Assembly (NCBI RefSeq): GCF_048771995.1
Contig: NC_133030.1
Location: forward strand, 62,879,501-62,943,500
Origin: Taeniopygia guttata
Lineage: Eukaryota; Chordata; Aves; Passeriformes; Estrildidae
Direction: 5' to 3'
DNA length: 64,000 bases
Below the pieces are notes generated by a model that made no database searches, was not told the DNA's origin, and worked only from the letters and a program-made list of their open reading frames with translations. Made by a program: the position numbers and the translations under genes. Shown here in pieces: positions 15,601-61,633 of this stretch; positions within the stretch are counted from its first letter, which is position 1; the number at the start of each line of letters is the position of its first letter.

Positions 15601-18600
15601 CTGAAGGTAACAGGGACTAAGCATAGGCAGGATTTCCCCCAAAAAGCCAGGAATACTCTGGGAAGGGCAGTGACTCTGCAGTCCATGTTGAAAGGATGAG
15701 TTCTGGGCTGTGTTGAGCTATGACTTAGCCAAAAGTCATTGAAGCAGCAAGATAGAGAGGGGTGTCCATGAGAATTGGTGCTTGGGGCACCTCGATGGGT
15801 TGTTCATGGATTCCTAACCTCCAGTTCAAACCTCTGCTGCCATCACATGCAGAGTGTGTGTGTGTGTGTGCACAGCTCTCAGATGAGCTGTCAAGCCAGG
15901 AGATAAAACATCTTGATCGAGTTTAAAATCCTCTTTTAAAAACAAACAGACCATCCAAAGCAAACTTGCTGGTAAGCCTTTTGATAATTTATCAAAATCC
16001 AGTGTTCACTCTTGCTGTGGCAGGAGTGGGTTATGTGTGAATGGATTCATAATTCCTGTCATCAGCTGAAGCTTGGAATATGTCATGCTTTGGCTTGATT
16101 GGGAGTTACCCTTATTTTGATGAGTTAACACCTGATTTTTTTCCTCTTCCAAGTGCTGATCTGCTGTGGGTTTTTTGTTTGGTCCAGGAAAACAGCCGCC
16201 TGGAAAATGAGCTCTTGGAAACGGGAGAAAAACTGGCCGAGTGTGAAAGTCTGGCAAGCAAACTGCAGAGGAACCTGGAAAATGTCCTGGCTGAGAAGGT
16301 AAATCCCCCTTTTCCCAGTGGGATTTCAGAATTAAATCACTTCTGAGTTGCTACATTCTAGCTGCCAGTTTAACTGATAGCCAGAGGCTCTTGGGGTCTC
16401 TATCCAGATTATCCAGGCACAGCCTGCCTTGGTGACTGACTCCCAGCTAAGGAAAATACAGATATTCCACCTTAACTGTAATTTTATTCTAATTAAAGCA
16501 GGGAGCCTTAGAATGAAGCAATCATCCTGCAGATCTCCAGGGATTTTTTTTTTTGGATGGGCCCAAATTGCAGGTCCTTTCCAGGGAAAAGATGATGCAG
16601 GGGGAGTGAGGTTTTACATGGCATCACTGATGGAAATAGGTGAAAATCGAGGTGAACAGCTGTTAATGGCTGTATTACATTTAAACTTTCAGAATATCAG
16701 CTTCTCCAAAGATGTTTAAGTCTGTGCAGCCATAGCCTAAGGTTCAAATATTGGGATTTCCAGCCTTCTTAAACTTGGCATTATTTACCACACTGAGATG
16801 TGCATATGCTAAAGTAGAAAGCTGTGATCTGGAATCAAAATGAGCATGAAGAGCTGTGCTAGATGGCAGACAGGTTTTTTGGGGAAGATACTCATTCCCT
16901 GCTAGGAGGAAAGCGGACTTTTTTTATTTAAAATAAAAATCCAGAGTGGAGAGAGGGGAGTGCAGGCTGCAGGACTGCTTGGAATGGCAGCCATGCTGTC
17001 CTGAGCAGGGCTGCAGGGTGGGTGGATAACTGGGCATTCCATTCCTGTGTTCCAGTTTGGTGACCTGGATCCCACCAGTGCAGAGTTTTTCCTGCAGGAG
17101 GAGAGGCTGGCCCAGATGAGGAGCGAGTACGAGCAGCAGTGCAGGGTAAGTGGGGCTGAGACCTGGCTCCTGTGTCCACCAGGAACATCACAGAACCATT
17201 TAGGTTGGAAAATCCCTCTGAGATTGAATCCAGCCATTCCCCCAGCACTAAGCATGCCCCAAGTGCCACATTCCAACAGAGGCACAAGGCAGGCTGGAAA
17301 GCTTTTCCACAGAACCCTCTGGCTGAGCCCTGTGAATTCAGAGTTGCAGGAACTTAGAGGAGAAATAAGATACATCCACATTTTGCTGGCATTCAGACCA
17401 GATTTTTTTTTTTTTTTAATAAACCTTAGAATAGAAAGTTTGCTTTCTCTTCCATCTTGTGTGCTTAAAGGACTTTAGGGTGAGCCTGCAGGTTTTATAT
17501 TTGCACATCTGCTTTCTGATATCTGCTCATCTGTTGCCCAGAGCAGCTGTGGTTGCCCCTGGATCCCTGGAAGTGTCCCTGGCTGGGTTGGATGGGGCTT
17601 GGAGCAACCTGGGATAGTGGAAGGTGTCCCTGCCATGACAGGAGGTGGAATGGGATGATCTTGGGAATCCCTTCCAACACAGACAATTTTGTAATTATAT
17701 GATCTGTTCTTCAGGATCATTTCTATTCAATAAAGGGCTGCCTTTGCTGTTGGATTGGGAACAGCACAGCAGCTCTCTTAGGAAGCTGCAGTTTGAAAGC
17801 AAAAATTGTCAATACTTCTCGATATGCAGCTGATTTTTCTCCTTTTGAGGATGGCAGATGTAAATCAGTACTCAAGGTTCACTTCCTGGGCCTTTCAGGA
17901 TTCTGTGTTTGCACATTGAGGGAGTTGTTTTCCTCAATAACTGCTGTTCCTGGAGTGGAGTGCACAGCTCTTGGCACAAACCCTGGGGATGTTCCTCTGG
18001 CAGGCAGGAGGAAGGACCAGATGGTAAATACAGTAATGAGGGGATCTCTTTCCTATTTTGATCTTTTGCTTCTGATTTGATTTTTCAAGTGGATGGTGTT
18101 TGAGGAGGCATTTCCCAACTGTTTGGAAATGTTACTAAAGCTGCTTTTTAATAAAAGGTCACAGGAAGAGGGAATAAAGAGAAAGCTCCCTGGAGCTCCT
18201 GTTAAACCTTCACCTTTGAGAGTCTGGTATTGTAGAATCATCAGAGAATCTCCCAGAATGGTTTAGATTGAAAGGGACCTTAAAAACCATCTTGTTCCAC
18301 CTCTTGCCATGGCAGGGACACCTTCTACCATCCCAGGGTGCTCCAAGCCCCAGTGTCCAACCTGGACATCCAGGGGCAGCCACAGCTTCTCTGGGAATTC
18401 TGTTCCAGGGCCTCCCCACCCTCAGAGCCAGGAATTTCTTCCCAATATCCCATCCAGCCCTGCCCTCTGGCAGTGGGAAGCCGTTCCCCTCCTTGTTAGA
18501 CTGTGGCACTATGGGTTTTTGGCAAGTTTTTCTGTGCTGTAATTCCCACCTGAATGTCCTGTGGTGGGGCTGGGTCAGTGCTCAGCAGCCTTGGCTCCTT

Positions 18601-27600: not shown

Positions 27601-30600
27601 CCACATCACTATGTGCTCTAAAGGGCTGTTTAAATTCCTGTATTTGTATCAACTTAACCTGTAAAACTTCTCTGGGTGTTTTTTCCTCACCCTCAAGCTA
27701 AATAAAGGCTTAATTGCCACTGTTTAGATTTTTTTTTTTTCCCTAGCTGGTCTTAAGAGAGGAAAGCTTAAATTCTGGAGCACAGCTTTACTGTAATTTG
27801 ATTATGTAGAAAATTCCAAACATTGCAAGGAAGAGAGGCCTGGATATAAATACTGCAGCAGGACAAGGAAGACAGTGTTCTTGGACTTTTATTGCATCTC
27901 TAACCTACTGTAACTCTGAACTGGAGCAGAGCAGTCTGCACACTGTAAATAATAATCCCATTGTGTGGAAATTTAGGGAACTGAGGGGCTTTTTACTTTC
28001 CTGCATTTTCCTTCCTTCCTTAGCTTTAACTCCCTCTAGGGTAACCCATGAAGTCAAATGGAGTCAAAAACAAATTCCTGAGTGAGGATTTCTGATGTAA
28101 TCTCATTGCAGGTAGCTCAAGTCAGCTGCCTGGAGAGTGCAATTGGCAGCCTGAAGCAGGAGCAGAAATCCTGGGAGCAGCAGAGTCAGGCACTGAAAGC
28201 ACAGCTCAGCCTCTCCCAGGACAAGGTATGAAACACTGATTTATGTTCTAGCTCTGGATAAAAGCATTTTGATCATCTCCTGTAGTGCTTTTTCTCATGA
28301 AAGCCCCTCCTGATGCTGTGCAGCTGAGAACGGCTGCTTGAGGGGCTTTCCAAGTGAGGTTCTTAAAGGACAAAAGGAAACTTGTTACACACAGTGAGGG
28401 ATTTTTCTCTCTACAGACAAGTTACTTTTGCCAATTCCCTCTGCCTGGTGATTCCTAAAATGCTGCAGAGACTCTGCTGTTGCTCCTCTGTCCTGGTGCA
28501 GGCTCATCCTTCCCCAGGCAGGGATGGGATCAAGTGGTTCCCTGCTTGGCTGAGCATTCCTGGAGTAGGAAGAATTCCTGCCAGGAAGAACAAACAATTC
28601 AAGGGAAAGCTTCTTTCCAGGATATCACAGTAAATGCTCAGGGCTGGAAGATGTTTCTGGTGAATGCAGCACTGTGGTTCTATCCAAAGTGGGTGGCTGC
28701 AAGCTTGGAACAGAAAGTTGGGAAATAATTTGGAATCATAGAGTTTTAAGGGTAGAAAATCCCTATAAGACTGAGTCCAACCATTCCCCCAGCACTGCCC
28801 AGGCCACCACTGCCCCATGTCCCCATGTCCACCCAGCTTTTAAATCCCTTCAGGGATGGGGACTGCACCACTGCCCTGGGCCGCTGTGCCAATGCTCAAA
28901 AACCCTTTCCATGAGGAAATTTTCCCTAATATCCAATCTAAACCTCCTCTGACACACCTTGAGGCTGTTTCCTCATCCTGTCCCTTGCTCCCCAGGAGCA
29001 CAGCCTGACCCCCTTCAGCTCCACCTTCCTGTCAGGGATGAGTAGAGAGCAATAAATTCAATTTAACGTTTTCAAAGGAGGAAAGCATTGTTTTAACTTC
29101 ACTCCTTCCATCAGAGAATCCTAAATACCTGGGATACCTGATCCACACAGGGAATCTTGATCCAGCAAAAGCCAAGCTGTGTTCCTGTTCCTTCCAGGTT
29201 CAGAGCCTCAATGAAACTCTGCAGAGCACCAACCTCCAAATGTCCAGGCTGAAATCTGACCTGCAGGTGACACAGCAGGAGAAGGAAGGTCTGAAACAAG
29301 AAGTGATGGCATTGCACAAACAGCTGCAGAGCACCAGTGAAAAGGTAAAGGGCTTCAGGCATCTCAGGAGGTAGCTATAATTATTGATAATGGATATCAT
29401 GTGCAGGTTTTAAGGTGATTTTTAAAAACTGTATTTTTTAAAACGTGGACAGGCAATGATCAGTCCCTCTCCTGAGTCTCCATTCTTCCCTAAAAGAAAC
29501 CTTTTGCCAGTCAAACCCCCAAATCTGTGGGCAATGCATTAATTTACACCTATCAACTATAAAAATTAAACCAGTCGTTGGTAGAGGATCTAATTTTCAG
29601 TGCAACTTGACTTTGAAAGGTACAGAATTACATCAGCCTCTCAGCTAATGAGGATTTGTAACTGAAGGAGGTTGTAGACAGCAGTCTTGGGATTGCTGTT
29701 ATGAATTCAGTTACTAATTTGGCTTGTTTGCCATGTAATTAAGGAATATTTAATGTCCACGTGGAAAAGAGGCTGTTTCAGAATTGTACAACAGGAGCTA
29801 AATTACAGCTATTAGTGCATAATATACAATACTGAGTTCTGTTTGGCTCTAAGGAGAGCATAAATTGCTTTTTTTGTGTTGCTGAACTCTGTGCACTCCT
29901 TGTGCACACAGCTATTATCCATCATTTTAATAGAGGGAAGCACTTGGGATTGCACATTGGATTTCTTAAGGGAAAACAGTGAGTGGGCTGGGAGGGAGAT
30001 GGGAATGCTGCAACTTTGGAGCCTGCACTTACTGAAAATCCACCTAAAACCCACCTGAGTAGAGCAAATGTCTGCTTCTTTGTTGAAGGCCTAACCCTGC
30101 AATTCTGTCTGTCTTAAGAACCGGGTTCTGGAAGTGGCTGTGCCTCCCTCAGGGCTGCAGGACCAGCAGGGGCTGATCCATTGGGATGAGCAGGAGCAGG
30201 AGCAGAGGCTGCTCAGGCAGGAGAACGAGAGGCTGCAGAGGGAAGTGCAGAGCACTAAAACAGACCTGGCTCACTCCAGGGAAAAGGTAAGCTGGGCAAG
30301 CTGGCTCTGGAAGTCACTCAGACCACAATGCATAGCTCACAATCCAAGCAGGTTTTGAATATCTCCAGAGAATGAGACTCCACAACACTCCCAGGATACT
30401 TCTTTTCTTTAAAAGACAATCCTAAAATCCTTTAAAAATCCAATATTAAGAATCTTTTTGTTAACTTGAAGTTGGACTGAAACCTTGGACAAGGACTGGT
30501 AATCTTTTTGTTAACTTGAAGTTGGACTGAAACCTTGGACAAGGACTGGTAATCTTTTTGTTAACTTGAAGTTGGACTGAAACCTTGGACAAGGACTGGT

Positions 30601-33600
30601 AATCTTTTTGTTAACTTGAAGTTGGACTGAAACCTTGGACAAGGACTACCGTCCTTGTCCAAGGTTTCAGTCCAACTTCAAGTTAACAAAAAGATTCTTA
30701 ATATTCCTAACATTCTTCTTGTGCAATTTCTTGGCTCACAGTTCTTAGTGGATTATGGGGAGGATGAAGGGAAAGAAGGCCAAGATATCAAAGCAAATAT
30801 GTCCAAAATATCCCAGAGTTGCCCAGAGAAGCTGTGGCTGCCCTTTGATCCCTGGAAATGTCCAAGACCAGCTTGGACAGGACTTGGAGCAGCCTGGGAT
30901 AGTGGGAGGTGTTCCTGCCCATGGCAGGGGTGGGATGGGTTGGGATTTAAGGTCCTTTCCAACCCAAACCATCCTGGGATTCTGTGATTCCAAAATCTGG
31001 TATTTTAGAAGAAGTGCAGCTATCTGGAACATCTTTTCCCATTTGTTCATCCCTGATCTCCTCAGATCCGACAGCTGGAATCCACAATCCTTTCCCTAAA
31101 GCACCAAAAGCACCAAAGCCAGGCAGGGATTGTCAAAGCCATCGAGCAGGAGAAGCTGAGCTTGAAGAGAGAGTGTGAACAGCTTCAGAAGGAGTTGTCA
31201 TCTGCAAACAGGAAGGTGAGTTTTGGGTGGTAAACACACAATTCAGTGCAGGGGTTTCCATCTCTCAGAAGCTCAAGGGATAAGCTGTGTTTTAAGTGTG
31301 TGGAACATGGACAGGCAATGATCAGTCCATCCCTCGAGTCTCCATTCTTCCCTAAAAGAAATCTTTTGCCAATAAAACCCCCAAATCTGTGGACAATGCA
31401 TTAATTTACGCCTGTCAGCTGTAAAAATGAAACCAGTCATTGATCTAATTTTCAGTGCAACTTGGGTTTGAAAGGTACAGAATTACACCAACCTCTCAGC
31501 TAAGATAATTTTCTTCTGCTGCTCTGAATTTTGTGCTCTTTGCCTCTCACAAATCTTTGTCTGAAGGAGCTGACAGGGCTCTGTGCATCTGCTGTGAGAC
31601 AGCTCTTGTAGCAAAGCACTTTTCCAAATACTCCTGGTTTTTAGACTTGTCTGGGTATTCAGTGGTTCATGAGGGGGGAAAAAACAGATGAAATGAGAAA
31701 TTGCTGCTTTTCTAAGGAAACTTTTTGTCTCTGATAGATCAGTCAGATGAATTCCCTTGAACGTGAACTGGAAACCAGCTCAGAAAACGAAGGGCTGAGA
31801 AAAAAGCAAGTCAAGCTGGATGATCAGTTAATGGAGGTACTTTTCAATCACTGTTGACTGTGGGCCTTTATCACTATTTTAGTGAATTTATTTTATTTTA
31901 AACAACTTATGGATGTGTAGCAACAGAGAACTTAATCGAAACTAGAAGAATTAACCTCTCCTGATTTTTAATCTCATCTTTCATAACCAAGCAAACATCC
32001 TGCTCTCTGAAGCATGTTTTGCTTAGTCATAATTCACATATGGCTTCAGATATAAAATCAAATAGCAAAGAAATTTGTTTCTGTACTTGTGGCAAGGCTG
32101 ACACTTCCCTCTTCCTTCCCAAAACATGTCACCTCAAATTTCCTATCTAATGGTTGTGTGATGCTGCTCTTCATATAGAAACCTGTTCTTATTTCCTCTG
32201 TGAATGATTTGCTGAATTTGAGCTTAATATTATCTAAATCATGGAAAAAAAAAAACAATTTACACAGCTTACTGTTAATTTAAAGGCATAAGTGAAAACT
32301 GTAGTGGAGATTCTTCCAAAAGCTGCTGTAAAAGTTCTGCAGGAGATGGATCATGGTGGATATCAAAATTTAGGAGTGTTTGGTTATAGGAATGGGCACC
32401 TTAAGTGTGTATTGTGTGTCCCATAAGGTCAGCCCAGACCTCCAAGTTCTCTCTCAGTAGTCTTGCCTAAATTTGATGTCCTGGATTTGAGTTTAAAACA
32501 TAATAATAATTTTTTTAAATCCTACAATTTTGACTTGTTCCATAAGTCAGAGCATCTTTTAGATGAGGCTTCTATAACACTTCATAAATGGCTTCATGTT
32601 TTTCATCAAATGGGAGCCATTAGGCTGAAAATCCTATGTAATTAGTAATAAAACTGTAAAAACCTAATTAGGAAATACGAGATTTTGACAAGTTAATGAA
32701 AAGACTGTTTTTATTCCTTGTGAATTTATTTATATAGTCTTAATTAAGCATTGGGAAAATGCCAAACACTCAAACCCATAAACACCCACCCTGGCATTGC
32801 CTTTTCTCCTGAAATGTGTATTTCAAACAGGCAGGATTTTGTTCCTCCTTGAAACCTTTTCCCAGCAGGTGTGTACAACATTCACTCAGGGATTTGTGAC
32901 TTCTAACTCTCTCTTTTGTGCCTGTTCTCCTTTTGTCCATGGCTAACGTGGCTAGAACTCAGTGGTTGGAACTAGCAGAGAAGGGGGCAGTTCTCTCTCT
33001 GAAATAGTGTGTGAAGGTAGAGCAATCATTTTTAATGTACCCCCATAGCATGGAGAAAACACTTTTTTTTTTTTTTTTTAATGGATTTTTTTTCCTTTTA
33101 ATTCCATGCATCTCTTAAGTAAAGAAGCCACTATTCATTTCAGTGTCAATTTTGGACAGCTGCAGCAGGTTCTTTGTGGTTCTGCACCCCAAGGAGCTGC
33201 GTGTTCCTAAGGGATTGCCATGAAAATGGACACAAGTCACCCCATTGCTTCCAAAAGAACTAAAATTGGAAGTGGGAGAATGAAAAGTGGCTTCCTGCTA
33301 CCCCATTGCCTGTGAGGCTTGAAGGTGTTTGCATATTTACCTCTGGTGCCTGCATGCTTTTCCACCAGACTGTCCAATGTTTCCTTAAATTAATTAATTT
33401 CTGATCCCACTTGGCATCATCCTGGTAGTTTAGCAAGCTCATGGTTGTTCCATTTTCTTCCACGGATGAAAACAGCAGGGCTGTATTGTTTTCATTGTTG
33501 TTTCATTAGTAATTATTTTTAAGATGCTGCTAACACTAATTGACTATTTCCTCATTAGTTACTCACATGTTTTACAACTTGACAGAAGCCCTGAAAGAAA

Positions 33601-39600: not shown

Positions 39601-40998
39601 TCTTTGGCATGGGAGAGTTACATTGTCAAACATGACCTTATGACTTCACCTTGTTTTTATTCTAAAACCATTAAATTGGCATTTTGTTTCCCACATTCAT
39701 CAGAAATTTGGCAGCACCAAAGAACAAGAAAAGGAAATTATCCAGCTCTGACTTCCAGATAATACAGAACATTAGAATTTTATGTAATTTTTCCTTGAGT
39801 TGGTATAATTTCAATTATAAGTTGCTTGGAAAACCAGTGCAATGCTGAAAGTGTCCTTTAAGTGCTGCCAGAATATTTTGCTTCTATGAAGGTTTTATTA
39901 ATTTAGTTGCCTCTTAATCAGACTGAAGTGTGGAGGGCCACCTATTTTCTTGAGCATAAACTGGAAAAACAAAATAGACTGCTGAATGGGAACTGATTTT
40001 TAAGTGATTTTTCACATAAATGTTGCTTTCCAGGGGGATCACGAGCAGCTTCTAAAAATGATGGAAGAGCGGATGATGGACGTGGAGCAGAAATTAAGGC
40101 TTGTGAAGAGGCTTCTCCAAGATAAAGTACATCAGCTGAAAGAACAAGTAAGTGTTCTTGGACTTCCTCAAACCTTCCCCATTCCTTCTTTAAACCCCTA
40201 AGTGGGGAAAAGCTGCCAAGCTGTTGTTCAGAATAAAGATATTTAATAAAACCAGAGCTCAACTACAGCACAGTTGCCCAAAACTTCATAAAACTCCAAA
40301 CTGGGGACTGAATCCACTACTCATTAGTCTCCTAAATCAGGAAACAAAAATCAAATTTCAGCTGAGGATGCTAACTGGAAAAGGATGCTTAGAAAAGGAG
40401 GAAAAAATAATTTCTGGAGGAGAAAATATTGATTTCTTTGAGGCCTCCTACCCCAAATTCATCCTGTGTTTGATGTAGTTTTGGGGTTTTTGGAAGTATC
40501 TCTGTGGGCTTGTGGTTTCTCTTGTGCACTAAATTTATCCTTGAAGGATAAATGCTGTAAAGGAGAATTCACCTGAAAAAATGGATTTTAAACCCTCTGT
40601 TATCTACCCCATCTCCTTAAAAAAACCTTTCCAGCCTCAAAACTTTCACAGCATCTCTGTGTTTTTAATGAGGAGTGGGGTTTTACTTTGATATTTGAGC
40701 TATAAATAACATATTCACCTACTTCCCCACCTCCTTTGGAGTTTTAATGTGCCATTTGCTGAGTGCCTGTGTCCCATTCCCAACCCAGCTTGCCAAAAAC
40801 ACCAAGGCAGATGCCGTGGTCAAGGATCTCTACGTGGAGAACGCGCAGCTGCTGAAGGCTCTGGAGGTGACAGAGCAGAGGCAGAAAACTGCAGAGAGGA
40901 AAAATTATTTACTGGAAGAGAAAATTGCCAACCTCAACAGGATAGTGAAGAACTTGGCCTCCCCCTCCTTCAGCCCAGCACCAGAGATCAGGTCATAG
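3523..40998 (+). CDS. NIN: Ninein gene, all but the first exons (27 coding exons)
   Basis: Ninein is a large coiled-coil protein of the subdistal appendages of the mother centriole. It anchors microtubule minus ends and binds the gamma-tubulin complex. The spliced exons at the listed positions give 1986 residues that follow human ninein end to end as I remember it: KRYGRRSLPEFQES near the start, EF-hand-like segments (window residues about 85-160 and 239-250), then almost continuous coiled coil from about residue 280, ending VENAQLLKALEVTEQRQK and a short SFSPAPEIRS tail. All introns are GT-AG and all phases match. The start codon and roughly the first 90 residues (N-terminal EF-hand pair) are upstream of the window; no such exon is visible in 1-3522. 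Identity is near certain; exon edges are judged by eye. Confidence 0.97.
5573..5705 (-). mobile_element. CR1 fragment
   Basis: An inverted CR1 3' UTR: ATGGAATCCCAGGATGGTTT, TTGGAAAGGACCCTAAAGCC, ATGGGCAGGGACAATTTCCA. Confidence 0.85.
6531..6680 (-). mobile_element. CR1 fragment
   Basis: An inverted CR1 3' UTR: AGAATCCCAGAGTGGTTTGG, AGCAGGGACACCTTCCAGCA, AGGCTGCTCCAAGCCCTGTC. Confidence 0.9.
6934..7140 (-). mobile_element. CR1 fragment
   Basis: An inverted CR1 3' UTR: GTCCCAGAATGGTTTGGGTT, GGGCAGGGACACCGTCCACC, CCAGGGACAGCCACAGCTTC. Confidence 0.92.
8104..8146 (+). CDS. NIN: NIN exon w2 (43 nt)
   Basis: A small exon between CCCCAG and GTAAGA encodes HWKTRGSEEYEAEG. It matches human HWKTQRSEEYEAEG and joins phase 0 on the left to phase 1 on the right. 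Its small size makes it easy for gene finders to miss. Confidence 0.95.
8463..8665 (-). mobile_element. CR1 fragment
   Basis: An inverted CR1: GGAATGGTTTGGAAGGGACC, ATGGGCAGGGACACCTTCCA, TCTCTGGACAACCTGTGCCA. Confidence 0.88.
8991..9100 (+). mobile_element. CR1 tail with an inverted partner
   Basis: CAGTTGGACTCGATGGTCTT and GGAGGTTTTTTTCCCAACCT are a forward CR1 tail. Immediately before it, GACCATTGAGTCTAACTGTT is the same motif inverted, so the two form a fold-back (9000-9021 with 9032-9053). Confidence 0.75.
9310..9497 (+). CDS. NIN: NIN exon w3 (EF-hand-like region, first half)
   Basis: The exon runs from ATTCCAG to GAG|GTGAGC. It encodes QLRFWNPDDLNAS, then WIEEKLQEVCEHLGITRDG and the following HLNRKKLVSICEQYGL. 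This is the first of a degenerate EF-hand pair: the loop around ITRDGHLNRKKL lacks the acidic residue at position 1, so calcium binding is unlikely. It enters in phase 1 and leaves in phase 0. Confidence 0.95.
10541..10687 (+). CDS. NIN: NIN exon w4 (EF-hand-like region, second half)
   Basis: The exon of 49 codons follows CCTTGCAG and ends ATGCAG|GTGAGA. It encodes the second EF-hand-like loop, NLGQDGTMSIED, followed by FFYGLFRNGKSLTPSASTPY and RQLKRHLSMQ. The human loop as I recall it reads NLDPDGTMSVED, so this bird has Gly in place of Asp at loop position 3. Confidence 0.95.
10998..11145 (-). mobile_element. CR1 fragment
   Basis: An inverted CR1 tail: TAGAATTCCAAGGTGGTTTG, ATGGGCAAGGGCACCTTCCA, GTCCAGCCTGGCCTGGAGCA. 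Confidence 0.88.
11580..11747 (+). CDS. NIN: NIN exon w5
   Basis: The exon of 56 codons (CTCTCCCAG to AAG|GTAACC) encodes SFDESGRRTTTPSAMPST, then a segment ending EEGIENSQEILK-like (here QEGIENSQEILK). It is a conserved linker between the EF-hand-like pair and the next EF-hand. Confidence 0.95.
11862..12022 (+). mobile_element. CR1 fragment
   Basis: A forward CR1 3' end: GGACAGGGCTTGGAGCAGCC, GTGGAACTGGATGATCATTA, CAGCCCAAACCATTCTGTAA. Confidence 0.9.
12808..12918 (+). mobile_element. CR1 fragment
   Basis: A forward CR1 3' end: TGCTTGGAGCAGCCTGGGAT, GACCTTTAATGTCTCTTCCA, ACCCAAACCACTCTGGGATT. Confidence 0.88.
13362..13498 (+). CDS. NIN: NIN exon w6 (canonical EF-hand loop)
   Basis: The exon runs from TTTCCACAG to TTGAT|GTGAGT and leaves in phase 2. 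It opens with ALDFSLDGKVNLTELTLALE. The loop DFSLDGKVNLTE has D, S, D, G, hydrophobic, N and E at loop positions 1, 3, 5, 6, 8, 9 and 12, so it is the only complete-looking calcium loop in the visible part of the protein. The rest (TKNGVHQAALASFKAEIRHL) leads into the coiled coil. Confidence 0.95.
13975..14330 (+). mobile_element. CR1 3' region, longer copy
   Basis: About 355 bases of forward CR1: CCTGAAGGGGCTCCAGGAGA, then CAGAGAAGCTGTGGCTGCCC, then GGTCCCTTCCAACCCAAACC. This is the same subfamily as the copies at 58045 and 60175. Confidence 0.92.
14561..14701 (+). CDS. NIN: NIN exon w7 (start of coiled coil)
   Basis: Phase 2 in and phase 2 out (CTGCCCAG to CTCAG|GTGGGC). It encodes ERFDQVAREKEKLRSDLEKA and SLMASEVDDHHAAIERRNEY, almost identical to human ninein. 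This is the start of the long coiled coil. Confidence 0.95.
15432..15606 (+). CDS. NIN: NIN exon w8
   Basis: Coiled-coil exon from CCCTGCAG to CTGAAG|GTAACA, phase 2 in and 0 out. It encodes KLDEEYKERVGALKNELRRE, then EQILQQANKQRLELEQEIEK and DENYIRDRLALALK. Confidence 0.95.
15855..15872 (+). repeat. (GT)n microsatellite
   Basis: A short GT run in the NIN intron after exon w8. Confidence 0.85.
16188..16298 (+). CDS. NIN: NIN exon w9
   Basis: Coiled-coil exon of 37 codons between GGTCCAG and GAAG|GTAAAT. It encodes ENSRLENELLETGEKLAECE and ends LQRNLENVLAEK, as in human ninein. Phase 0 on both sides and a multiple of three. Confidence 0.95.
17056..17145 (+). CDS. NIN: NIN exon w10
   Basis: A 30-codon exon (GTTCCAG to AGG|GTAAGT) encoding FGDLDPTSAEFFLQEERLAQ and MRSEYEQQCR. 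This is a well conserved ninein block. Phase 0 on both sides. Confidence 0.95.
17186..17300 (-). mobile_element. CR1 fragment (GATTGAATCCA subfamily)
   Basis: ACAGAACCATTTAGGTTGGA and AATCCCTCTGAGATTGAATC, then CAGCCATTCCCCCAGCACTA, match an inverted CR1 of a different subfamily from the GGGACCTTAAAG type. Confidence 0.75.
17536..17705 (+). mobile_element. CR1 fragment
   Basis: A forward CR1: GCCCAGAGCAGCTGTGGTTG, GGATGGGGCTTGGAGCAACC, ending GTAATTATATGAT. Confidence 0.9.
18232..18500 (-). mobile_element. CR1 3' region
   Basis: An inverted CR1: TCCCAGAATGGTTTAGATTG, CATGGCAGGGACACCTTCTA, then GCAGCCACAGCTTCTCTGGG and CCCTGCCCTCTGGCAGTGGG. Confidence 0.92.
18635..18788 (+). CDS. NIN: NIN exon w11
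   Basis: The exon begins after CTCTGTCAG with ELQDQIDELHSELQEHRAQG and ends DQ|G in phase 1 at GTAAAG. The middle, SLSEEFDIDMKSHGHSGIEP, is less conserved than the flanks. Confidence 0.93.
19107..19228 (+). CDS. NIN: NIN exon w12
   Basis: The exon begins after TTTCTAAAG in phase 1 with GLGSEDCNPLNMSIEAEMAI, then EQMKEQHHRDLHHLKQELED, and ends at ACA|GTAAGT in phase 0. The acceptor tract is weak (AT-rich), but homology fixes the edge. A CR1 tail fragment begins within a few bases of the donor. Confidence 0.93.
19232..19292 (+). mobile_element. CR1 tail abutting a NIN donor
   Basis: GGAATGAGATGGTCTTTAAG, GTCCCTTCCCACCCAAATCA and TTTGGGATTCTATG form a forward CR1 tail starting three bases into the intron after exon w12. 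Confidence 0.85.
19480..20006 (+). CDS. NIN: NIN exon w13 (527 nt, coiled coil)
   Basis: The exon follows CTTCTGCAG and ends AAAG|GTGAGT in phase 2. It encodes VSHYEKQLDETKARWEKEQE through HALEKEELQEELLRKHQQEL. It is entirely Glu/Lys/Gln/Leu-rich coiled coil with many short EEK and QE runs, and it matches the corresponding human exon in position and ends. Confidence 0.95.
20700..22673 (+). CDS. NIN: NIN giant exon w14 (1974 nt)
   Basis: A single open exon of 658 codons between CATGTCTAG and GCTGAG|GTAACG, phase 2 on both sides and an exact multiple of three, so it can be skipped without shifting the frame. The first half is coiled coil (NRRASHAQTQFSVD, LEGRYQRELQELAEQQREEK). The middle (window residues about 1020-1150) is an acidic, Ser/Pro-rich, poorly conserved stretch, and the end returns to coiled coil (LQSTCTELQQKVDLLR). 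From memory, the mammalian counterpart (Nin exon 18) is spliced out in neurons and is needed for centrosomal targeting; that regulation in this bird is inference. Confidence 0.96.
23850..23975 (+). CDS. NIN: NIN exon w15
   Basis: The exon runs from CTGGCACAG to AATGAG|GTGAGA, phase 2 on both sides, 126 nt and so frame-neutral if skipped. It encodes CEAEKLREENAVLKKEVTLL and NEEGSASSLKLRELNGSREE, as in human ninein. A TGCATG motif lies 8 bases into the following intron (23984). Confidence 0.95.
24507..24730 (-). mobile_element. CR1 fragment (AAGACCTCCAAGATC subfamily)
   Basis: GGTTGGAAAAGACCTCCAAG, ATCATCAAGTCCAACCATTA and ACCCAGCACTGCCAAGGCCA are an inverted CR1 of a widespread avian subfamily. 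It ends just before the acceptor region of exon w16. Confidence 0.9.
24789..24858 (+). CDS. NIN: NIN exon w16 (70 nt)
   Basis: A short exon after TTTTTCCACAG ending AAGCAG|GTGTGT. It encodes QKIEAVRKEKVAVQKMVDNL and KKQ. Phase 2 in and 0 out. Confidence 0.94.
25561..25776 (+). CDS. NIN: NIN exon w17
   Basis: Seventy-two codons of coiled coil between CCCACTCAG and ATTGAG|GTACAG. It encodes VADLKTRNQQLDSENTELSQ through EEWEKERLLLKEELENSKIE. Phase 0 on both sides. Confidence 0.95.
26090..26203 (+). CDS. NIN: NIN exon w18
   Basis: Thirty-eight codons after TTTTTTGCAG: SSNMVSSLEMDLSKMKVQAH, then LLEQENHILKQELEKTKQ. The donor CAG|GTTTGG is weak, and CR1 sequence begins about a dozen bases later. 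Phase 0 on both sides. Confidence 0.94.
26212..26388 (+). mobile_element. CR1 fragment abutting a NIN donor
   Basis: A forward CR1 beginning about a dozen bases after the weak donor of exon w18: GCCCAGAGGAGCTGTGGCTG, then GATGACCTTTAAAGGTCCCT and CCAACCCAAACCCTTCTGGG. Confidence 0.9.
27200..27400 (+). mobile_element. CR1 fragment
   Basis: A forward CR1: AAATCCTTCCCTGTGAGGGT, GGAGCAACCTGGGATAGTGG and CCTTCCAACCCAAACCATTT. Confidence 0.9.
27459..27581 (+). CDS. NIN: NIN exon w19
   Basis: The exon runs from TTTCCCACAG to GATAAG|GTAAGA. It encodes LPRCPDLSDLQNEVSSLITK and EKEALSEELNRCIDK. RCPDLSD is a diagnostic ninein string. Phase 0 on both sides. Confidence 0.95.
28112..28225 (+). CDS. NIN: NIN exon w20
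   Basis: Thirty-eight codons after ATTGCAG, ending ACAAG|GTATGA. It encodes VAQVSCLESAIGSLKQEQKS then WEQQSQALKAQLSLSQDK. Coiled coil, phase 0 on both sides. Confidence 0.94.
28730..29060 (-). mobile_element. CR1 fragment (ACTGAGTCCAACCATT subfamily)
   Basis: AATCATAGAGTTTTAAGGGT, ACTGAGTCCAACCATTCCCC, then AATCTAAACCTCCTCTGACA and GAGGCTGTTTCCTCATCCTG form a long inverted CR1 3' region. Confidence 0.92.
29198..29344 (+). CDS. NIN: NIN exon w21
   Basis: Forty-nine codons from CCTTCCAG to GAAAAG|GTAAAG. It encodes VQSLNETLQSTNLQMSRLKS, then VTQQEKEGLKQEVMALHKQL. Phase 0 on both sides. About 100 bases into the next intron lies a 202-bp block that recurs after exon w23. Confidence 0.95.
29447..29648 (+). 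repeat. Intronic duplicate block, copy A
   Basis: The block starts GGACAGGCAATGATCAGTCC and ends CATCAGCCTCTCAGCTAA. It recurs at 31309-31503 with about 90 percent identity by eye. It does not look like CR1. Confidence 0.85.
30119..30286 (+). CDS. NIN: NIN exon w22
   Basis: Fifty-six codons from TGTCTTAAG to AAAAG|GTAAGC. It encodes NRVLEVAVPPSGLQDQQGLI and RLLRQENERLQREVQSTKTD. It is a Gln/Glu-rich coil in the C-terminal region that, in human ninein, has been reported to bind GSK3-beta. Phase 0 on both sides. Confidence 0.94.
30442..30705 (+). repeat. 50-bp tandem repeat (4 copies) ending in a palindrome
   Basis: Copies start at 30451, 30501, 30551 and 30601 (unit begins AATCTTTTTGTTAACTTGAA). 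The fourth is followed by four bases (TACC) and a full inverted copy at 30651-30705. The inverted copy also includes the AATATTAAG that precedes the first unit. Confidence 0.97.
30818..30992 (+). mobile_element. CR1 fragment
   Basis: A forward CR1: TGCCCAGAGAAGCTGTGGCT, GGACTTGGAGCAGCCTGGGA and CCAACCCAAACCATCCTGGG. Confidence 0.92.
31066..31215 (+). CDS. NIN: NIN exon w23
   Basis: Fifty codons from GATCTCCTCAG to AGGAAG|GTGAGT: IRQLESTILSLKHQKHQSQA, then EQEKLSLKRECEQLQKELSS. Phase 0 on both sides. Confidence 0.94.
31309..31503 (+). repeat. Intronic duplicate block, copy B
   Basis: Direct-orientation partner of 29447-29648, about 7 bases shorter through small indels. Each copy starts about 95-105 bases after a NIN exon donor (exons w21 and w23). 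Confidence 0.85.
31738..31836 (+). CDS. NIN: NIN exon w24 (99 nt)
   Basis: Thirty-three codons after CTCTGATAG, ending ATGGAG|GTACTT. It encodes ISQMNSLERELETSSENEGL and RKKQVKLDDQLME, matching human SQMNSLEQELET and KKKQVKLDEQLME. Phase 0 on both sides. Confidence 0.94.
31837..34566 (+). other. NIN: NIN intron w24
   Basis: A 2.7-kb AT-rich intron without recognisable exon or CR1. It holds a T-run around 33062 and three tandem copies of a 23-bp unit containing TGAAAGGGAATTAAAATCA at 33857-33926. Confidence 0.7.
33857..33926 (+). repeat. 23-bp tandem repeat, 3 copies
   Basis: Three adjacent copies of GTTGTGAAAGGGAATTAAAA-TCA-type units, with a few substitutions. Confidence 0.8.
34567..34737 (+). 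CDS. NIN: NIN exon w25
   Basis: Fifty-seven codons after ATTTTGCAG, ending CAGCAG|GTAAGC. It encodes VPREQFLQLQQQLLQAERRS, identical over most of its length to human VPREQFLQLQRQLLQAER. Its phase-0 donor can be joined to exon w26 (40034) or to the alternative terminal exon at 37797. Confidence 0.95.
34738..37796 (+). other. NIN: NIN intron w25, upstream of the alternative terminal exon
   Basis: AT-rich, with no exon or CR1 seen apart from the flanking ones. It contains a four-copy AT-rich tandem repeat at 37128-37440 and several poly-T runs (near 37660 and 37702). Confidence 0.7.
37128..37440 (+). repeat. AT-rich tandem repeat, 4 copies of about 77-92 bp
   Basis: TTTGGCTACATTTTTCCCAA-type starts occur at 37128, 37205, 37297 and 37385. 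Each is followed by a GCAATCTGTGAG-like piece and a run of TA-rich sequence. Confidence 0.85.
37797..37859 (+). CDS. NIN: NIN alternative terminal exon, own stop codon
   Basis: After a strong pyrimidine tract (CTTCTTTCTCTAG) a phase-0 reading frame gives ALLPEQRAVHADSYRRIGHL and then TGA. I recall the same string as the alternative C-terminus of a mammalian ninein isoform. No good donor lies inside the coding part, and an AATAAA follows at 38282, so in this bird it works as a terminal exon. Using it replaces exons w26 and w27 (the last 107 residues) with 20 residues. The exon carries a TGCATG (37822) and another lies 162 bases upstream of the exon (37630), both potential Rbfox sites. Confidence 0.85.
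   Translation, partial: ALLPEQRAVHADSYRRIGHL
38282..38287 (+). terminator. NIN: Poly(A) signal of the alternative NIN terminal exon
   Basis: AATAAA lies 423 bases after the alternative stop and is followed by a T-rich run and TGTCTCTTGTCTT, a plausible downstream element. The span 37860 to about 38310 would be the 3' UTR of the short-tail isoform. Confidence 0.7.
38311..40033 (+). other. NIN: NIN intron between the alternative and common 3' exons
   Basis: AT-rich unique sequence. No exon, CR1 or tandem array is recognised. Confidence 0.6.
40034..40147 (+). CDS. NIN: NIN exon w26
   Basis: Thirty-eight codons after TTTCCAG, ending GAACAA|GTAAGT. It encodes GDHEQLLKMMEERMMDVEQK and LRLVKRLLQDKVHQLKEQ, matching human MEERMIEVEQKLKLVKRLLQ. 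Phase 0 on both sides. Confidence 0.95.
40789..40998 (+). CDS. NIN: NIN last coding exon w27
   Basis: The exon follows CAACCCAG and runs to TAG at 40996-40998. It encodes KNTKADAVVKDLYVENAQLL, LKALEVTEQRQKTAERKNYL and an end at SFSPAPEIRS. Mammalian ninein ends similarly with a short Ser/Pro/Thr tail after the last coil. Confidence 0.96.
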   Translation, partial: LAKNTKADAVVKDLYVENAQLLKALEVTEQRQKTAERKNYLLEEKIANLNRIVKNLASPSFSPAPEIRS

Positions 40999-41086
40999 CA
41001 GAAGCTGCTGTGTGTCACAGCCCCGTGCACTTTACTGAAATGGGAATATTTCAGCTTCTCACTGTGTTGCCTTTTTTTTTTTTTTA

Positions 41087-41181
41087 CTGAATGAGTTTTT
41101 GTTACAAATGCCTCCCCAGAGAGCACAGAGCTGATTCCCAAAATGGACACTACCAAAGGAGAATGTTGTTGGTTGCTAAAC
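41087..41181 (+). repeat. NIN: NIN 3' UTR segment duplicated at 45.5 kb (source copy)
   Basis: It contains TTACAAATGCCTCCCCAGAG and ACACTACCAAAGGAGAATGT. The same text recurs exactly 4440 bases downstream. Confidence 0.93.
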
Positions 41182-42674
41182 TGGCTTTCTGCTAAGTTTT
41201 GCCTAAAAATAATCATCACTATGTAAGAAAAAAAAAAAACCCAAACTTATGTTTATAGGTTAACTCAGTTTGGCTTTCATTTAAAATCCAGATTCTGAGT
41301 TTCCTGTACTGGATCATCTAGATTGGAGCTAAGGCCTAAAGTAAACTCATGTTGAACTGAAAACAATATTTTCAGCTTTCATGCTCCAAACCTAGAAATG
41401 CTGAGGGGTCAGTCTTCAACACTGTCAGTAGAAATGTTATTGAAGGCAAGACTTTGCTGGTATGGTCTGTGTCCTGTAAACTGATTCTGGTTTCTCTAAA
41501 GCAATTATTCATTAGGCTTCTGGGTTGTTCTTCATGGCTATTTCTCTGCAGAGCCCAGAAAAAAAACAAAAAAACCCGGTTTATTTAAAATATAGTACTA
41601 GACTACTGCCTCCAACTAAATGTGACAGAATTTCATCTGAAGAAATTTCCCAGCTAGCAGATAAAGACTATTATTTCCTTTTTTGTTTTAAGGCTGTGCT
41701 GCCACACAAATCTGAACTGTGGAGGCCTTACTGGTTTTGTATATGGAAATAAGTTAAACCAAGGAAGAGTCACTCAACAGAAGCAAAGATGGGAGTTTTG
41801 TTTATGTGATTTGTAAATTCAGTAAAGCAGTGCAGTGTATTTATTGAACAGCTGGCAGAAGAATGAAGAAGGGCACTTGGAGGATTTTGTCAGTGGGATC
41901 CTGTTGTTGGAACCCTCATGAACGTGGAGCTTTGCCAGGAATGCAGCATTTGTTCTGACCTGAGGAATCATTTGGAAAAGTCTTGTCTTTTGTGTTAATC
42001 CTAGTGCAGAATCTAAGCCTGTCATTAGTTGTGGAGAAGCACATTCAGTGTCATTATGAAGAACTCAGGGAGTAACAACCTAAATCAGCTTCCTTCAGCT
42101 ATAAATGTGGGTATTAAAGTCAGCAGAAGGAGATAAACACACTTTAGGGAAAGCAGGATAAACCCAATTGGATTTGGGTGAGTATTTCCTTGGTGCTCCT
42201 CACCCAAGTAGCAGAGGAGCATCAAGGTTTGGGATGAGGGTGGTACCTCCTCCTGGGTCAGGAGAGAAATGCAAATTTTTGGGAACACCTTCAAGACAGA
42301 GGGGTTTGCCAGAGAAGCAGCTGGATGAGAGCCTGCCTGCTCAAGGGTGTGTGTGTGTTAACCTGCCCTGCCTCCCCCAGAGCAGCCAGGCACAAAAATT
42401 CTGGAATACTTGAAACTAGACCTCTTAAAATGCAAGAGATTGGGAGGGGGAGGAAGAGGTGCTTTGTCTCAGAGAACACTGGCAAGCTCATCATTCTGTC
42501 AGGAGCCAAAAGTCCTCCAGAAACTGGGGTAACACAGCCTGCAGGCTGTGGAGGAGCCTCTGGAAAATGAGTTTTACTGTGTACTGATGTGGCTGAGAGG
42601 GTGTTCCCTGTGTCTCTGGGGGTACTTACCAATTTTAGAGGGTTTGTGGACTGGACTAGGCACAGGAAGTGAAC

Positions 42675-43029
42675 TTTTCCTCCTCCTTTTCCTCCTCCTT
42701 TTCCTCCTCCTTTTCCTCCTCCTTTTCCTCCTCCTTTTCCTCCTCCTTTTCCTCCTCCTTTTCCTCCTCCTTTTCCTCCTCCTTTTCCTCCTCCTTTTCC
42801 TCCTCCTTTTCCTCCTCCTTTTCCTCCTCCTTTTCCTCCTCCTTTTCCTCCTCCTTTTCCTCCTCCTTTTCCTCCTCCTTTTCCTCCTCCTTTTCCTCCT
42901 CCTTTTCCTCCTCCTTTTCCTCCTCCTTTTCCTCCTCCTTTTCCTCCTCCTTTTCCTCCTCCTTTTCCTCCTCCTTTTCCTCCTCCTTTTCCTCCTCCTT
43001 TTCCTCCTCCTTTTCCTCCTCCTTTTCCC
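42675..43029 (+). repeat. Pure 12-bp polypyrimidine array (TTTTCCTCCTCC), about 29.6 copies
   Basis: No interruption is visible over 355 bases. The plus strand is all pyrimidine and the minus strand all purine. It lies 1.7 kb after the NIN stop. Confidence 0.98.
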
Positions 43030-43317
43030 TATCTATTGCTTTGTGCAGGCAACAAAGTGGAAATGGAAATGGAATCATGGGAGAACATCATGTTGGAGTC
43101 CTGATAAATTATTTCACTGCTGTGCTCTTCTAAATGCATGTAGTGGAGATTTCTCCAAGTCATCCCAAATTCAAGGAATTTACAGATTTTTTCAGAGGCT
43201 GCAAAAATATTTTCACAAACTGGAAGGGTCTGAAATTGATAGAAATCTGAGGGTTTAAAAAGCTGAAGTAGTGATTTCTTGGTCTCTTTTCTCAGCAAGT
43301 GGTCTGAGTTACATGAT

Positions 43318-43323
43318 AATAAA
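43318..43323 (+). terminator. NIN: Candidate distal NIN poly(A) signal
   Basis: AATAAA is followed within 5-35 bases by a GT-rich stretch (CTGTGTGGGT, GCTGTGTGTTGGG). It is the best-looking signal downstream of the NIN stop. If used, the 3' UTR would be about 2.3 kb and would include the 12-bp pyrimidine array. Alternatives are AGTAAA near 41820 and AATAAA at 44302. Confidence 0.35.
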
Positions 43324-44875
43324 TCTCTGTGTGGGTACCAGGGCTGTGTGTTGGGAATTTGAGCACACCCTAAACCCATGCTCTGGAAATTAGCAAAGTT
43401 CCAAAATATTTCCAGGAAACAAAAGATATGAGGTTCGGAACTGTATTTGGAAAAAAAAATTATTATCTAGTACATTTTAAGACTACTTCATACCTTGACC
43501 TTGATTTACTTGTGTCTGTAACCAAAGTCTAAAAGGAAGGAATGAAAATGTCACTTAAATTATTGTGCAGTTACTTTCATGTTGCTCACTTTAAAGGCTG
43601 GACTATTTAAGTAATTCTTTGAATCTCCTGGTAGTTACCAGGCTTTTATAAACCAAACATAGACATTGCTAGAGCACAGCACCAAAATGGGAGAAGCAGA
43701 AATAGGGAAAAGGGACTTTTGGCTTTTCCTTTTCTCCCCTATCCTACTTTGCTGTACTCCTCTTTCACTAATCTTCAAAAAAAAAAAAAAAAAACTCAAC
43801 TACAGGAGAGAGGAGGAGGAGGAAAACATCCTGTTGGTAAATACCTTGAGGCAAAACTGCAATTTCAGTGGAAGATTTGTGTGGATTCATTCTCAGAAGT
43901 GCCTTTTGCCTCCCTGTGTTGTACAGGACAATTCAGGACAATCCCTTCCCAAAAGGAAGGATCAGAGAAAGGCAGAGCTGCTTCCAGATGGGTGGCACGT
44001 CGCTCCTGAATTCTTTGTGTCAGCTCAGAAGAGAAGCAGCTGTTTTACAAAGTCCAGGCTACTGAAAATAAGCATAAGAAACACATAATTTATTAAGCAT
44101 TTAGGGGTGTTTTGTGCATGAATGTGTCTCCTATGCAGAATAGGCAAAAACCAAAGTATTTAATGTTTATTTTGCAGTCAAAAATCACTGAACTTTTAGG
44201 CCTTGTTCCTACAACAGGTCCTGCCACGTCATATATGAACTACTTCATTACCACAAAGTATTTTAAATGTTTTCAGCTCTTACTTTATGAATCACTGTGA
44301 AAATAAAGGCACATGGACATTTCAGGTTGGGGGTTTTGGAAGGGGACAGACCCCAAGTTAAATAGAGGTGTACAAAATTCACGCAGTTGAAGTGCTGCTT
44401 GTCAATTTAGAATGATTTAAAAGTCTACACGGTGGCTCCAAGTAGTACTTTAAATAAAAGGAAAAATTGAGTTGCTTGAATTCTGGTTGAGGAAAGAAAC
44501 GGGATTTTAACATTTTTGATTTTAGCCAGGTAATGTGTTAGGTACAGCAGGGGGAAACAGTCTGGATTGATCAAGACTAAAATCCTTTTGTTTACTTCCA
44601 GCACATGCCATCCCTGTCACTCAGGTTTTCCATCATTTACCTGTCCAATCTCCTGTTTGGTGTCATTTCATGACAAACAACTTCTGTATAAAGGAAAACA
44701 AATGTATATTTTTTTTTTCTACTGAGTTTGTTTTGTTCTGGTGTAATATATTGTCCTTAGAACATCATGTAAAGCTGAGAGAGGAAGCAACTGACACATT
44801 ATTTATAATGAGCATAAAAAATACATTAATGTATGATGCATACTTGTGTCTTTTTGGTTTTTATCCAGCATGAAA

Positions 44876-45045
44876 ATAATAGAATAATTTGGGTTGGGAG
44901 GGATCTAAAGCCCATCCATTCCCACCCCTGCCATGGCAGGGACACCTTCCACTATCCCAAGGTTGTTCCAAGCCCTGTCCAAGCTGGCCTTGGACACTTC
45001 CAGGGATCCAGGGGCAGGCACCACCTCTATTCCCATGGATGTTGT
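44876..45045 (-). mobile_element. CR1 fragment
   Basis: An inverted CR1: AATAATTTGGGTTGGGAGGG, CATGGCAGGGACACCTTCCA and GGACACTTCCAGGGATCCAG. Confidence 0.9.
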
Positions 45046-45417
45046 AAACACATCAAATAGTATCTGCAAGTTTATCAAAGGCATGCACAGTAATAAAAAG
45101 GATGGCTTGACAGCTGTGAAAAAGTAGTTTTTGCATTACAAAAGTACGAAATTGAAGTGTAAAAAGCTGACAGGTAGTGAACACACCTTGGCTTATGTTC
45201 AGCTGAAGTTGCATCCCTACTTTTCGCCTTTATATGGGAAGTACTGAGGGCTTGTTGCAAGAGTTTCACAGAGTCCTGGGGTGGGAAAGGCAGGAGGGGA
45301 CCACCGTGGGTCCCTGCTCTTGGTCAGACAGGGGTACAGGGGTACAGAAATGTGCCCAGCTCTGGGCCCCTCATGACAAGAAACACCGAGGGGCTGGAGT
45401 GTGTCCAGGGAAGGGAA

Positions 45418-45815
45418 AAGAGCTGGGAAGGGGCTGGGGAGTTCCTGAGGGAGCTGGGAAGGGCCTGGAGAATCCCTGAGGGAGATGGGAAGGGGCTGGA
45501 GAATTCCTGAAGGAGCTGGGAAGGGGCTGAATTAATTTTTGTTACAAATGCCTCCCCAGAGAGCACAGAGCTGATTCCCAAAATGGACACTACCAAAGGA
45601 GAATTTTGTTGGTTGCTAAACCGAAGAATCCCTGAGGGAGCTGGGAAGGGGCTGGAGAACTCCTGAGGGAGCTGGGAAGGAGTTGGAGAACTCCTGAGGG
45701 AGATGGGAAGGGGCTGGAGAGTTCCTGAGGGAGCTGGGAAGGGGTTGGAGAGTTCCTGAGGGAGATGGGAAGGGGATGGAGAACTCCTGAGGGAGCTGGG
45801 AAGGGGCTGAGCCTG
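45418..45815 (+). repeat. 31-bp minisatellite within CR1
   Basis: Units of the form GAGCTGGGAAGGGGCTGGAG plus ANTTCCTGAGG occur about nine times, interrupted once by the 95-bp insert. Confidence 0.93.
45527..45621 (+). repeat. Copy of NIN 3' UTR segment inside a minisatellite
   Basis: About 92 of 95 bases are identical to 41087-41181 (85 of 86 over the core 45536-45621). It interrupts the 31-bp array between GGGGCTG and GAAGAATCCCTG. Confidence 0.93.
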
Positions 45816-46140
45816 GAGCAAAGGAGGCTCAGGGGGGACCTTGTGGCTCTGCACAGCTCCTGCCAGGAGGGGACAGCCGGGGGGTCGGGCTCTGCTCCCA
45901 TGGGACAGGGCAAGGAGAAATGGTCTCAAGCTGTGCTAGGGGAGGTTTAAATGGGACACCAGAGAAAATTTCTCCACAGAAAGCGTTGTCAGGTAGCGGA
46001 AGGGGCGGCCCGGGAGTGCCCATCCCTGGAGGATGTGGCACTGAGTGCTCTGGGCCGGGGACAAGGTGGGCACCGGGCACGGCTTTGGACTCGCTGATCT
46101 CGGAGAGCTTTTCCAACCTCAGTGATTCAGTGATTCTCCC

Positions 46141-46908
46141 ACTGTGGGGTTCTGTCACTCTGTCATTCTGGGGTTTCTGTCATTTCCGGGGTTTCTGTCA
46201 TTGTTCCAGGATTTCTGTCATTATTCCAGGATTTCGGTCATTCTGGGGTTGGTCATTCCGGGGGTTCTGTCATTCCAGGATTTCGGTCACTCCGGGATTT
46301 ATGTCATTTTGGGGTTTCTGTCATTGAGGGGTTTCTGTCATTCCAGGATTTCTGTCATTCCGAGGTTTCTGTCATTCCGAGGTTTATGTCACTCCGGGGT
46401 TTCAGTCATTATTCCAGGATTTCTGTTATTCCAGGATTTCTGTTATTCCAGGATTTCTCTAATCCCGGCATTTCTGTCATTTCGGGATTTCTCTCTTTCC
46501 GGGATTTCTGTTATTCCAGGATTTCTCTCACTCCGGGATTTCTGTCATTATTCCAGGATTTCTCTCACTCCGGGATTTCTCTCACTCCGGGATTTCTGTC
46601 ATTATTCCAGGATTTCTCTAACTCTGGGATTTCTCTCACTCTAGGATTTCTCTCACTCCGGGATTTCTCTTATTCCAGGATTTCTCTCACTCCGGAATTT
46701 CTGTTATTCCGGGATTTCTCTCACTCCGGGATTTCTCTCATCCCGGGGTTTCAGTCATTATTCCAGGATTTCTGTCATTCCGGGATTTCTCTCTTTCCGG
46801 GATTTCTGTTATTCCGGGATTTCTCTCATTCCAGGATTTCTCTCACTCCGGGGTTTCTCCCATCCCGGGATTTCTCCCATTCCGGGATTTCCCTCACTCC
46901 GCGCTTTC
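46141..46908 (+). repeat. 18-bp minisatellite upstream of SAV1
   Basis: About 40 variant units of the GATTTCTCTCACTCCGGG type (also GATTTCTGTCATTCCAGG). It begins at the end of a CR1 tail and runs into the SAV1 CpG island. Confidence 0.95.
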
Positions 46909-47211
46909 TCTCCTCCCGCCCTGCCCGTTCCCGCCGCTCCGCGCTGTGCCGCGCCCTCCCGGCCGCGCGGGGGCGCTGTGGCCGCGGCCCCTCCCGCGCT
47001 GCCCCGCGGCCGTGCCGGAGGGCGGCGGCCGCCGCCTTCCCACAAGGCCCCGCGCGCCCGCCGCGTCCCCTCAGCGACCCCGGCCCCATCCCGATCCCAT
47101 CCCCATCCCCATCCCAACCCCGCTCCCGGTCCCGGCTCGGCCCCCGGGGGCGGCTTCGGAGCGGGGGGCGGCGCCGGGCATGCGGGCGGTGGCGGCGGGC
47201 CGGGAGGTGGG

Positions 47212-61633
<14,422 letters not shown>

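Follow-up and report, generated by a model that had tools for sequence, protein, structure and literature searches.

How did a 95-base piece of a presumed 3' UTR come to stand inside a 31-bp tandem array 4.4 kb away? The question is raised by a 64-kb stretch of zebra finch DNA, referred to here as the window, in which positions 41087-41181 and 45527-45621 are 92/95 identical, on the same strand and at an offset of exactly 4440 bases (start-to-start). The best explanation, and quite probably the right one, is a templated insertion made in break repair, with nearby DNA copied through short microhomology. The coordinates of the relevant features are collected in Table 1.

Table 1. Positions in the window of the donor, the insert, the interrupted array and the CpG-rich stretch
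Feature	Positions	Strand	Remarks
Donor	41087..41181	+	95 bases; 92/95 match to 45527-45621
Donor right edge CTGG	41181..41184	+	same as the array's CTGG (shared run 4); likely return microhomology
31-bp array, left part	45420..45529	+	about 3.5 units, ends at CTG; TRF row 45420-45529
Left shared CTG	45527..45529	+	common to array and donor; likely departure microhomology
Inserted stretch	45530..45624	+	95 nt replacing one array base, net +94; splits one array unit
31-bp array, right part	45625..45811	+	restarts at unit index 18; TRF row 45631-45809
CpG-rich stretch	46501..47500 (about)	+	CpG o/e 0.84-1.01

The duplicated piece and the interrupted array

The three mismatches between donor and copy lie at donor positions 41093, 41095 and 41165, and the longest exact run within the pair is 69 bases; the longest exact direct repeat in 40 simulated first-order Markov sequences of the window's length was 15-21 bases. 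A BLAST self-comparison of the whole window, with 120 off-diagonal matches kept, contains two pairs that pass strict limits (at least 93% identity, at least 40 bp, more than 300 bp apart): the donor/copy pair and the inverted pair 13972-14118/61093-61238. A looser search covered same-strand pairs of at least 30 bp and at least 90% identity, 300-5000 bp apart, and omitted 14-base seed words occurring at more than six places or built from only two letters. It returned 29 pairs. Of these, 20 fall inside the two tandem arrays (46159-46909 and 60351-61113), eight overlap with repeat families or lie next to them, and the remaining one is the donor/copy pair itself.

The donor follows an upstream open frame that ends at 40995 (stop TAG, 40996-40998), with a gap of 88 bases between the stop codon and the donor's first base. 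This frame presumably encodes the C-terminus of ninein (NIN); Pfam gave no family for the two upstream-gene pieces among the three proteins submitted. The donor is thus presumed to belong to the 3' UTR of the upstream gene.

On the acceptor side, the 31-bp unit fits 104/110 bases to the left of the insert (45420-45529) and 173/187 to the right (45625-45811). The unit index runs from 16 at the last base on the left to 18 at the first on the right, so that the phase is kept; the net gain is 94 bp, and no more than one array base has been lost or altered, if whole units are left out of account. Because the acceptor is a tandem array, loss or duplication is readable only modulo 31, and to within one base on that scale no target-site duplication (TSD) was found at the insert. 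The array is regarded as the acceptor because it is the interrupted partner, its phase kept with a net +94. A first-pass annotation had given the coordinates, an identity of about 92/95, the orientation and the 4440 spacing, all exact on re-measurement; it had also held that the copy interrupts the array, which resumes in near-perfect register, and both statements were borne out by the one split unit, with 31-bp units on either side. The repeat that holds the array (45262..46158, + strand) is presumably a CR1 3' region. Its part to the right of the array (45812-46160) has six further BLAST matches in the window (21-138 bp, 70-95%), and the left flank (45262-45419) has no other BLAST match within the window.

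Junctions and age of the copy

Direct observations are the copy, its edges, the phase of the array, the absence of both tail and TSD, and the CTG and CTGG common to donor and array. At the right junction the copy reads CCGA, against CTGG in both donor and array, so that two of the four letters have changed (45622 T to C, 45624 G to A); the return microhomology is accordingly deduced by comparing donor with array, without the copy. A model that follows the array up to CTG, passes to the donor and goes back to the array at CTGG mismatches the sequence at 5/98 predicted bases (45533, 45535, 45605, 45622 and 45624), the other 121 of its 219 bases being the array's own letters, which match by construction. 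Four of the five mismatches are within 9 bases of a switch point. This clustering may reflect error-prone synthesis or short untemplated filler, the number being too small to decide. Shared runs of 3 on the left and 4 on the right are both reached in 0.26% of 291,135 random donor placements in the window, a figure that is post hoc, given the two changed letters at the right-hand CTGG of the copy.

The right end of the insert (45610-45640) contains no A-run of at least 5 and no match to two provisional CR1-tail patterns, in agreement with the earlier observation that the copied piece has neither a poly(A) nor a CR1 tail. A TTTTT run near the left end is present in the donor too and is therefore not an added poly(A/T) tract.

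The age of the copy was estimated with a two-branch formula, which assumes a neutral donor, at the zebra finch mutation rate of 2.0e-9 per bp per year (PMC12047795); a second rate, 3.3e-9, was an assumed value. At 2.0e-9, the 3/95 differences give 7.9 My (95% Poisson range 1.6-23), the single difference in the 86 bases 41096-41181 gives 2.9 My (0.07-16), and the 5/98 model mismatches give 12.8 My (4.1-30). Constraint on the 3' UTR at the donor would make the event older than these estimates state. An age of probably millions of years leads one to expect no variation between individuals; the insert is probably fixed, not polymorphic, and a segregating variant is unlikely. The copy had been called recent, which may hold on the scale of genera or families but has to be qualified at an age of about 8 My (1.6-23) from the 3/95 differences.

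Probable break repair with a nearby template, and its rivals

In the proposed sequence of events, the 31-bp array would first have suffered a double-strand break or a stalled fork in an ancestral germline. A 3' end with CTG as its last bases would then have paired with the CTG at 41087, nearby on the chromosome, about 94 donor bases would have been copied and the strand then displaced, and rejoining to the other break end would have proceeded via CTGG (donor 41181-41184 and the CTGG in the array), restoring the array in phase around the patch. That a break occurred, how it was repaired, that DNA was the template and which way the copying went are inferences. The patch has no evident function.

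In Pace et al. 2009 (PMC2671141), repair-mediated duplications of this kind are described from interrupted transposable elements, where the insert is captured DNA from within 5 kb. Among the human duplicons reported there, the donor lies within 5 kb in 824/1,136 and under 3 kb in 753/1,136; the proximal inserts have a mean of 162 bp and a maximum of 619, and 11/824 donors are 3' UTRs. The array insert agrees with that class in several respects: (i) its donor, 4440 bases away start-to-start, falls between the published bounds of 50 bp and 5 kb; (ii) it exceeds the 50 bp set as the least length of an insert in an interrupted repeat whose two parts rejoin, the array running in phase around 95 nt; (iii) its junctions, with CTG on the left and the donor/array CTGG on the right, correspond to the described microhomology of 2-9 nt, small deletion or filler; and (iv) no poly(A/T) tract of at least 5 has been added at an insert end. 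In the published class the host repeat is an annotated transposable element, for which the presumed CR1 3' region would be the counterpart, and the captured sequence has a single other place in the genome; within the window the 95 bases have one. As in those cases there is one donor segment, and the size of 95, the distance of 4.4 kb and the 3' UTR donor are all in the published range. Unlike those cases, the acceptor here is a tandem array, and its junctions are cleaner than in most of the 39 proximal cases, only two of which show microhomology alone, the rest having a deletion, filler or TSD (Table 1 of PMC2671141). A distance of 4.4 kb also lies in the tail of the published distribution, which counts against a perfect fit. 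On this comparison the insert appears to belong to a described class, by a mechanism that is well supported and not new.

Other known systems resemble the locus in part. Like the doublets of Thomas et al. 2004, known here through their mention in PMC2671141, the pair is short, near-identical and close together. The short bordering microhomology, sometimes with one mismatch, recalls the MMBIR-linked templated insertions of Osia et al. 2021 (PMC8421209), although the software of that study was aimed at inverted copies no farther than 100 bp from the template, whereas the present copy is direct and 4.4 kb away. Template-switch insertions are also reported as a product of human meiotic break repair (PMC7615360).

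The template itself could have been RNA, a reverse-transcribed fragment of the NIN transcript having filled the break as in class 2 templated sequence insertion polymorphisms (TSIPs). The donor lies in presumed transcribed sequence and the copy stands in the sense orientation of the transcript. Tail-less RNA-templated patches have been described, and class 2 TSIPs, which are without TSD or poly(A) and have junctions with microhomology, microdeletion or added bases (Onozawa and Aplan 2016, PMC5110952), would look much like the array insert, with its end-joining-like junctions and a size within their experimental range of 73-414 bp. The experimental inserts reviewed there, however, come from distant regions, whereas this pair is 4.4 kb apart in cis, a proximity for which an RNA patch alone does not account; nor does anything in the sequence point to RNA, since the piece spans no identifiable splice junction. 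Moreover, of the acceptors inspected in PMC2671141, none of the 39 whose donor lay within 5 kb carried a poly(A/T) tract, compared with 17/29 of the others, and an RNA template is for that reason judged less likely than DNA, and unlikely as a whole. The first-pass annotation had proposed a short templated insertion during repair of a break in the array, which is supported, from either nearby DNA or the NIN transcript; of these two templates, DNA is favoured.

That both 95-base places are independent members of a dispersed low-copy repeat is improbable, the piece having two places in the 64-kb window, that is, one besides the donor, and the next best match in the BLAST self-comparison covering 28 bp at 82%. 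A 29-base core of the copied piece had no exact match in scans of prokaryote genomes and viral contigs, collections that contain no bird genomes, and blastn of 45418-45815 against plasmids gave no match. Retrotransposition of a piece of NIN mRNA by CR1-type LINE machinery would suit a site within a presumably CR1-like element and a donor presumed to be mRNA, but LINE-mediated insertions, like class 1 TSIPs, are recognised by a tail and a TSD no shorter than 5 bp. The array insert shows no A-run, no CR1-type tail and, with the phase kept to within one base modulo 31, no TSD, which makes this origin highly improbable. An assembly or library chimera deserves equally little credence: the two places share a window, and arrays pose difficulties in assembly, but a chimera from the same molecule is usually identical, and the copy differs at 3/95 positions and at two further edge positions.

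Copying of nearby DNA in break repair remains the preferred reading, and the single case, as a clean scar of a described, ordinary repair process, matters little alone. Its use is as a worked example: the array period limits the loss at the break to one base at most, whole units apart, and the survey of Pace et al. 2009 (PMC2671141) included a single bird, chicken, with only six repair-mediated duplications. Tandem arrays could act as a sensitive recorder of such patches in long-read bird genomes.

Genes and repeats around the locus

Downstream of the array, the exon 56075-56353 encodes WW domains, as given by Pfam, and matches PDB 7bqf, SAV1 (E 6.2e-49). The CpG-rich stretch presumably contains the first coding exon of SAV1. 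Rfam at the gathering threshold gave no family in 40700-47500. A 17-bp array of about 43 units (46159-46909) reaches the edge of the CpG-rich stretch before SAV1 and has apparently grown from the 3' end of the CR1-like element.

A meiotic break at the CpG island is not claimed as the cause of the insertion; the CpG-rich stretch starts about 0.9 kb downstream of the insert, and the reported zebra finch crossover enrichment is confined to within 100 bp (PMC12047795). The broader idea that CR1-born minisatellites beside promoter CpG islands are germline break sites in birds, which are not known to have PRDM9, and record faulty repair as in-phase patches from neighbour genes, possibly via the neighbour's transcript, is speculative and improbable. 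A G-quadruplex as the cause of the break is suggestive at best and is not claimed either: G4 starts on the + strand number 0, 7 and 23 in 45390-45815 with loops of 1-7, up to 12 and up to 15, respectively, and 23, 71 and 108 in the whole window.

Between donor and acceptor, at 42674-43028, there is a 12-bp polypyrimidine unit (CTTTTCCTCCTC) in 29.6 copies at 100% identity. Polypyrimidine tracts can form triplexes and stall replication, and this tract could be related to local breakage.

Further repeats were noted elsewhere in the window. The inverted pair 13972-14118/61093-61238 is 96% identical over 147 bp, with 69 bases exact; part of its first member lies in a repeat that recurs at 18368-18478, and the second borders on the 34/38-bp array 60351-61113. 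The stretches 29442-29648 and 31304-31503, on the same strand and about 1.86 kb apart, match at 89% (29442-29580) and at 58/62 bases (29587-29648), and may represent either an element's terminal repeats or a locally duplicated segment. At 30442-30705, a 50-bp unit in 3.9 exact copies (30451-30647) is directly followed by an inverted copy, the outer ends matching each other (AATATTAAGAATC / GATTCTTAATATT); the structure resembles a fold-back element in which one arm has expanded internally.
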